33,972 nt of DNA, taken from contig JAUYIE010000018.1 in assembly GCA_030688365.1 (NCBI GenBank), positions 1 through 33,972 of the forward strand, given 5' to 3'. This document shows positions 2,192-3,865 of this stretch, in pieces; the stretch's first letter is position 1; every line of letters starts with the position of its first letter. The stretch is from a bacterium. Its GTDB lineage: Bacteria; Patescibacteriota; Patescibacteriia; JACQRZ01. The notes below the pieces were generated by a model. That model ran no database searches. It was not told where the DNA came from and was given only the letters and a program-made list of their open reading frames with translations. The translations under genes were made by a program, and so were the position numbers.

Positions 2192-2226
2192 ATTTTAAAA
2201 ACAGAAGCACCCCTTGTGGGGGTGCT
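2192..2226 (-). terminator. Rho-independent terminator after tRNA-Asn
   Basis: Minus strand AGCACCCCCACAAGGGGTGCT hairpin (2206-2226), then TCTGTTTTTAAAA. Confidence 0.75.
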
Positions 2227-2247: not shown

Positions 2248-2547
2248 CTCGGGAGGTGGGATTCGAACCCACGACCAATTGGTTACACGTGATCTATATA
2301 TTTCTATACGGCGTGGACTATATCTTCATCCATTTACATGGATGCGAGGCGCTTCCCCCTATTGCTAGAGGTACTCCTAAAAAGGATAGTCTCTGAACCT
2401 TCCCCTAATGGGGCTTGGCTGCGGATTACCATAGACATGCGCTGTCGTTAGGCTTCCCGCAATTCACCTCGAGATCATTCCGATGTTACCACCGGAAGCT
2501 GCGTTTATTATTCACAGCCAACTGCTCTACCACTGAGCTACTCCCGA
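2248..2547 (-). tRNA. tRNA-Asn(GUU), interrupted by a group I intron; exons 2514-2547 and 2248-2285
   Basis: Minus strand: 5' exon TCGGGAG-TA-GCTC-AGTGGTA-GAGC-A-GTTGG-CTGT; 3' exon TAA-CCAAT-TGGTC-GTGGG-TTCGAAT-CCCAC-CTCCCGA-G. Removing the intron gives a complete 72-nt cloverleaf with loop CTGTTAA, anticodon GTT. 3' CCA not encoded. Confidence 0.93.
2286..2513 (-). other. Group I self-splicing intron (no ORF), inserted between anticodon positions 35 and 36
   Basis: Conserved core segments read on the minus strand: P 'AATTGCGGGAAGCC', Q 'AATCCGCAGCCAAGCC', R 'GGTTCAGAGACTA', S 'AAGATATAGTCC'. P1: exon GCTGT pairs with intron GCAGC, giving the U.G at the 5' splice site. Intron ends with G. 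Confidence 0.93.
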
Positions 2548-2620: not shown

Positions 2621-3865
2621 CTACACGTAATCTCTCAACTTATCCATACCCACGAGCTTCTCAATCTTTTCAAGCGCCTTTGCTTCAATCTGACGGATAC
2701 GCTCGCGGGTCACACCAAACTCTTCGCCGACTTCTTCCAGTGTATGAGAAACGCCATCCAAAAGTCCAAATCGCATTTCCAATATTTTTTGTTCACGAGG
2801 GTGCAACGTGCTGATGATATCTTGCATACGTTCTTTCAAAAGTTGTAACGCTGCCGCCCGATCGGGTGTTATCGTTCGTTGATCCTCAATAAAATCCTCC
2901 AATGTACTATTTTCATCCTCATCTCCGATAGACGTATCAATAGAAATAGTATCTTGATTGATCTTGATAATATGACGCACCTTATCAACATTTTCACCCA
3001 TTTCCGCCGCAACTTCTTCAGGCAACGGTTCGCGCCCAAGATCTTGAATCAACTGACGCTGAATCTGTTGAAACTTATTGATAGTCTCCACCATATGAAC
3101 AGGGATACGGATCGTACGCGATTGATCAGCAAGAGCACGAGTGATCGCCTGGCGAATCCACCATGTCGCATATGTTGAAAACTTATATCCTTTCCTGTAG
3201 TCAAACTTCTCTACCGCTCGAAACAGTCCGATGTTTCCTTCCTGAATCAAATCCAAAAGTGAAAGACTTTTATCAACGAATTTTTTTGCGATAGACACTA
3301 CCAAACGCAAGTTTGCTTCAATCAACCGTTGTTCCGCTTCATTGTCACCACGTTCTTTCTTTTTGGCAAGCATGACCTCCTCTTCAGAATTAAGAAGTGG
3401 CACCTTACCGATCTCTCGCAAATACATCTGAATAGAATCAGCAGAAATATCAGAAAGATCAATCATCACGCGCTTCTTCTCTTTGCCTGTCATCGCCTTT
3501 TCACCTTCACCCGTGATCGGCGAAGATGTCCCGCCCAGTATTCCTCCTTTTCGTTCCAAAATCTGGATACTGTGATCATCAATTTCATCAAGAAAATCTT
3601 CATACTGTTCCAAAAACTCTTCAACATCTGAAAAATATAAAACAATCTCATCTTCAGTGAGAAATCCGCGCGATCGGCCTTTTTGTAATAATGAATCAAG
3701 TCTCTCCCGTGGAGGAAACACCGCCTTTGGAGCGATCGGTCGTACCGGGAGCTTTTGAGTTAGCTTCTTTTTTATGGTGGGCTTTGAGGCACGCGATCCC
3801 GCTTTTTTCGCGATCGGTTTCCTCTTTAGACCCGTTTTTTGCTTGGAAGGTTTCTTCTTTGTCAT
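2621..3865 (-). CDS. rpoD: RNA polymerase primary sigma factor (sigma-70 family, RpoD)
   Basis: Sigma-70 regions: '[74 protein letters not shown]' and '[27 protein letters not shown]'. Confidence 0.98.

Follow-up and report, generated by a model that had tools for sequence, protein, structure and literature searches.

A group I intron in the anticodon of the apparently sole tRNA-Asn(GUU) gene of a Patescibacteria genome

The split tRNA-Asn gene and its neighbourhood

The DNA analysed here, termed the window, is a stretch of 33,972 nt from a member of the Patescibacteriota, a bacterium with a small genome of the candidate phyla radiation (CPR) type, and includes on its minus strand a tRNA-Asn(GUU) gene that is divided by an insert of 228 nt. 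The 5' exon (2514..2547, minus; sequence TCGGGAGTAGCTCAGTGGTAGAGCAGTTGGCTGT) supplies tRNA positions 1-35, ends in ...GGCUGU35 and agrees with an intron-free orthologue found in a genome of the same family (G008). The 3' exon (2248..2285, minus; sequence TAACCAATTGGTCGTGGGTTCGAATCCCACCTCCCGAG) resumes with U36 A37 A38 and extends to position 73, the CCA not being encoded. The intervening element (2286..2513, minus) is recognizable as a group I intron with a P1-P9 core from its match to RF00028, from covariation and from its conserved columns, and it contains no ORF of note, the longest open sense stretch being shorter than 40 codons. Just 3' of the tRNA, a hairpin read from the sequence (AGCACCCCCACAAGGGGTGCT, 2206..2226, minus) is followed by a T-rich stretch, and the two together are likely to form an intrinsic terminator. 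The upstream neighbour, identified by Pfam and tblastn, is rpoD (2621..3865, minus), which encodes the primary sigma factor.

The limits of the gene (2248-2547) and the length of the insert given in the initial annotation proved exact to the base, and its assignment of the insert to group I is borne out by Rfam, with RF00028 covering 2523-2294 of the minus strand over the full length of the model (positions 1-253) at 89.6 bits (gathering threshold 50 bits; E 7.2e-22). ARAGORN returned no tRNA at 2248-2547, and with its intron option the same program labels the unspliced gene tRNA-Thr(tgt). The joined exons are called tRNA-Asn(gtt) by ARAGORN, with a full cloverleaf and a GUU anticodon, and the predicted spliced product is identical at 71 of 72 positions to the intron-free tRNA-Asn that lies beside rpoD in G008, both of which support the isotype originally proposed. 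Exon/intron arrangements were called stem by stem, with a procedure that replaced an ARAGORN scan of joined flanks found to be too permissive and to yield many false isotypes; its P1 search window was widened because a shorter one missed introns with long P1 loops. As this procedure made no call among 447 shuffled loci, the arrangement is not attributable to chance.

Conserved structure of the intron and its splice sites

The splice site can be placed from 24 aligned tRNA-Asn introns of the class, the window copy included. In P1 the 5' exon GGCUGU pairs with the intron segment GCAGCU, placing U35 opposite G; within this helix the internal guide sequence GCAGC (2498..2502, minus) pairs with GCUGU of the exon, and the P1 loop of the window intron measures 11 nt. 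The U.G pair is invariant across the alignment (24/24), as are the CTGT before the intron and the TGTAA across the 3' junction, and P1 is 97% paired. The position of the U.G on U35 supports the insertion between anticodon positions 35 and 36 put forward at the outset, and the P, Q, R and S elements, the P1 helix with its U.G and the terminal G of the intron are all present as then described.

The proposed P1-P9 structure, in which P3 and P7 form a pseudoknot, leaves 91.1% of the cells of this alignment paired, as against 35-47% when partners are slid by one to three columns; because the window copy served as the template for the structure, the comparison is biased somewhat in its favour, although two-sided changes in the other rows are independent of this choice. 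Such changes affect 45 of the 67 pairs versus 31.7 in shuffles, a contrast whose significance the shuffles overstate since the aligned introns are related. Helices P3, P4, P6 and P7 are 100% paired, with two-sided changes in P3 and P4 and an invariant P7, and at all 92 columns that are conserved among the other 23 introns the window copy conforms. Between the P7 and P3 strands a hairpin in the position of P7.1 covaries and is 93.5% paired, and a second hairpin in the same interval is poorly aligned and 52% paired. Hairpins at this place are a mark of subgroup IA rather than of IC3, the subgroup of the known bacterial tRNA introns, and one or more extra hairpins between the 5' strand of P7 and the 3' strand of P3 are not a familiar feature of IC3. 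Taken together, these structural features confirm the element as a group I intron of predicted catalytic type, and judging from its sequence it almost certainly removes itself.

The host genome

Intact tRNA genes are present in this genome for every amino acid except Asn and Phe. The initial annotation had tied the importance of splicing to this being the only tRNA-Asn(GUU) gene, and a search with the Rfam tRNA model, with ARAGORN and with a loose pattern found no second tRNA-Asn in the 844-kb assembly, which comprises 30 contigs and is 91% complete, so that another copy could be missing from it. The apparently sole tRNA-Phe(GAA) gene is itself split after U33 (33|34) by a group I intron of 252 nt (G000:C28, L040 1891-2211, minus). 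On the same contig the 3' end of the 16S rRNA gene is interrupted by a further group I intron, which is accompanied by a LAGLIDADG_2 protein (PF03161, E 4e-41; L040 116-804, plus). An Rfam match to group-II-D1D4-1 at 51 bits was also noted near the 16S gene (L003 100-182). The tRNA complement additionally includes a tRNA-Ile with a UAU anticodon (L010), which we read as standing in for the modified CAU tRNA that normally decodes AUA.

Phyletic distribution and filled and empty sites

Group I matches occur in 168 of the 381 genomes of the class. Examination of 149 loci, which were the best matches among these genomes and hence give no measure of prevalence, identified 43 introns at position 35|36 of tRNA-Asn, 30 at 33|34 of tRNA-Phe and four at 35|36 of tRNA-Tyr, with one weaker case each in tRNA-Thr(GGU) and tRNA-fMet; of the remaining, unassigned introns many lie in rRNA. 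One locus at first called tRNA-Cys was judged a misread tRNA-Thr(GGU) of G006 split at 36|37, a weaker case than the rest, and two calls of tRNA-Thr(UGU) (L071, L086) are in fact tRNA-Asn. A strict pattern run over species genomes gave 67 hits, of which 53 are confirmed tRNA-Asn introns, nearly all in Patescibacteria, and some of the others (in actinobacteria, Prevotellaceae and elsewhere) were not recognized as tRNA introns by the caller. The confirmed cases span Saccharibacteria, Uhr-, Magasanik-, Kaiser-, Doudna-, Peregrini- and Pacebacteria, among others, and the same split arrangement of tRNA-Asn is common across this bacterial group. One of them, at tRNA-Asn 35|36, is from a metagenome-assembled genome labelled Chloroflexi (L224), for which transfer and misbinning are both possible.

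An exact pattern for the intact tRNA-Asn gene matched 161 of the 381 genomes, a figure too low to be read as prevalence because the pattern misses other T-loop sequences. A pattern for an intact gene matched 13 of the 44 genomes with a tRNA-Asn intron; a few of these matches are not tRNA-like, leaving about ten genomes with another intact tRNA-Asn-like gene. In four genomes (G305, G353, G155, G245) the split tRNA-Asn is accompanied by a second intact tRNA-Asn-like gene with a different, GATGTC-like type of variable loop.

The order rpoD-tRNA-Asn is retained, according to tblastn, in four other genomes of the family, G004, G005, G006 and G008. Filled and empty versions of this locus occur within a single genus: G004 has the intron and G005 an intact tRNA-Asn that is identical at 71 of 72 positions to the spliced product of G004.

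Intron lineages and probable mobility

In a tree of 79 tRNA introns there is strong clustering by host tRNA, with eight host changes versus 29 in shuffles. The exceptions include a clade with 100/100 support that unites the tRNA-Asn introns of G004 and G006 with two tRNA-Tyr introns. The window intron clusters with introns from other families rather than with those of G004 and G006, and a tree constrained to unite the family's three tRNA-Asn introns is rejected (p-AU 0.009), in a test whose group was chosen after the tree had been seen and on a tree whose inner branches are mostly weak. Because this grouping is rejected, the tRNA-Asn 35|36 site was most likely colonized at least twice within the family, by two intron lineages. 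The tRNA-Asn and tRNA-Tyr genes of the G004/G006 clade share GACUGU as the end of their 5' exons, and given this common sequence a single guide could serve both hosts. G006 displays about ten group I matches (L041, L057, L052, L048, L050, L053, L054). Several of these are in rRNA, one splits tRNA-Asn, and others split a tRNA-Thr and a tRNA-Tyr gene that are neighbours.

An ORF that starts 23-42 nt into the intron, in the P1 loop, is present in six tRNA-Asn introns with lengths of 547-579 nt (L060, L061, L073, L078, L079, L081). In five of the six the ORF overlaps the guide sequence, which is translated as ...TQLP or similar. Five of the proteins can be aligned with invariant CxxC, HH and CxNCH..H residues typical of HNH nucleases. 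Pfam gives weak matches to HNH, the best of which (E 3e-4) falls slightly below the cut-off. The presence of these ORFs in six relatives suggests that the tRNA-Asn intron family was probably mobile at some time. The original statement that the intron encodes no homing endonuclease thus holds for the window copy, which represents the endonuclease-free form, but does not extend to its family. A broader proposal, on which we consider the evidence evenly balanced, is that tRNA introns of Patescibacteria home chiefly to two sites, tRNA-Asn 35|36 and tRNA-Phe 33|34, that two unrelated lineages occupy the former within one family, that part of these introns is spread by a new family of small HNH homing endonucleases whose reading frames lie in the P1 loop and overlap the guide, and that whole codon boxes would depend on ribozymes in many genomes.

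Predicted splicing and alternative explanations

The above observations suggest that the tRNA-Asn transcript would fold into a group I ribozyme, in which a guanosine, presumably supplied as GTP, would attack at the conserved U.G, just 3' of U35, and the released U35 would then attack after the terminal G, joining the exons into a normal tRNA-Asn. As splicing would yield what is apparently the only tRNA-Asn of the genome, the decoding of AAU and AAC would most likely depend on this ribozyme, making it probably essential. The window intron itself would belong to a site-specific lineage that is widespread in Patescibacteria tRNA-Asn genes and has some members with an HNH protein that may act in homing, and it would have reached 35|36 separately from the tRNA-Asn introns of G004 and G006. 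We assign this overall reading a probability of about 0.94.

A degenerate intron that has lost catalysis, leaving the gene a pseudogene and decoding to a tRNA-Asn outside the assembly, would be compatible with the 91% completeness noted above and with the second intact tRNA-Asn-like gene of some relatives. This appears very unlikely in view of the complete core with all 92 conserved columns kept, the intact exons with their acceptor, D, T and anticodon stems, the use of Asn codons (as in rpoD, dnaG and sufS) and the recurrence of the same state in dozens of genomes, most of them lacking another match. A regulatory role, such as coupling Asn decoding to the level of guanosine nucleotides, is a speculation drawn from the apparently sole tRNA and the requirement of group I introns for G; we regard it as a shade less probable still, given that the intron is patchy within one genus (present in G004 and absent from G005), and that this patchiness and the signs of mobility better fit a tolerated element.

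The intron option of ARAGORN implies splicing at 33|34 instead, giving tRNA-Thr(UGU), and the shifted cut would likewise have U before the intron and G at its end. It would however pair U33 with A, whereas the invariant U.G of the guide helix sits at U35 in all 24 introns, and on this pair we reject it as scarcely credible; moreover, tRNA-Thr genes with UGU, GGU and CGU anticodons are already present in the genome, and it is the 35|36 product that matches the intact tRNA-Asn orthologues.

Relationship to known introns and implications

The known bacterial tRNA introns (PMC3984707, PMC4033280) are likewise short, usually ORF-less group I elements of the anticodon loop, from which the window intron differs in its tRNA-Asn host and its site at 35|36. 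Group I introns have been described in the 16S and 23S rRNA genes of CPR bacteria in a study that does not mention tRNA (PMC11270868); these share the host group of the window intron and differ in host gene, and the present genome has one of this kind too, the 16S intron with a LAGLIDADG protein. A review and a genome paper (PMC8172020, PMC9698310) state in passing that some CPR tRNAs contain group I introns or insertions, mentions which, unlike the present description, give no isotype, site or structure. The title of a 2025 preprint (Nakagawa et al.), cited in PMC12641178, refers to a new site of group I intron insertion in the tRNA genes of Patescibacteria. Going by that title, introns in such genes have already been reported, and with the same host group, intron type and kind of host gene it very probably concerns the same phenomenon. 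A literature search over an incomplete collection found no paper on HNH ORFs in tRNA-Asn introns.

Split genes of this kind are overlooked or mislabelled by standard annotation, with the result that the genomes seem to lack tRNA-Asn and tRNA-Phe. The system allows tests of how a ribozyme in the anticodon is tolerated by an essential tRNA present in single copy, and, with a filled and an empty locus in one genus and two lineages in one family, of how introns colonize tRNA genes.
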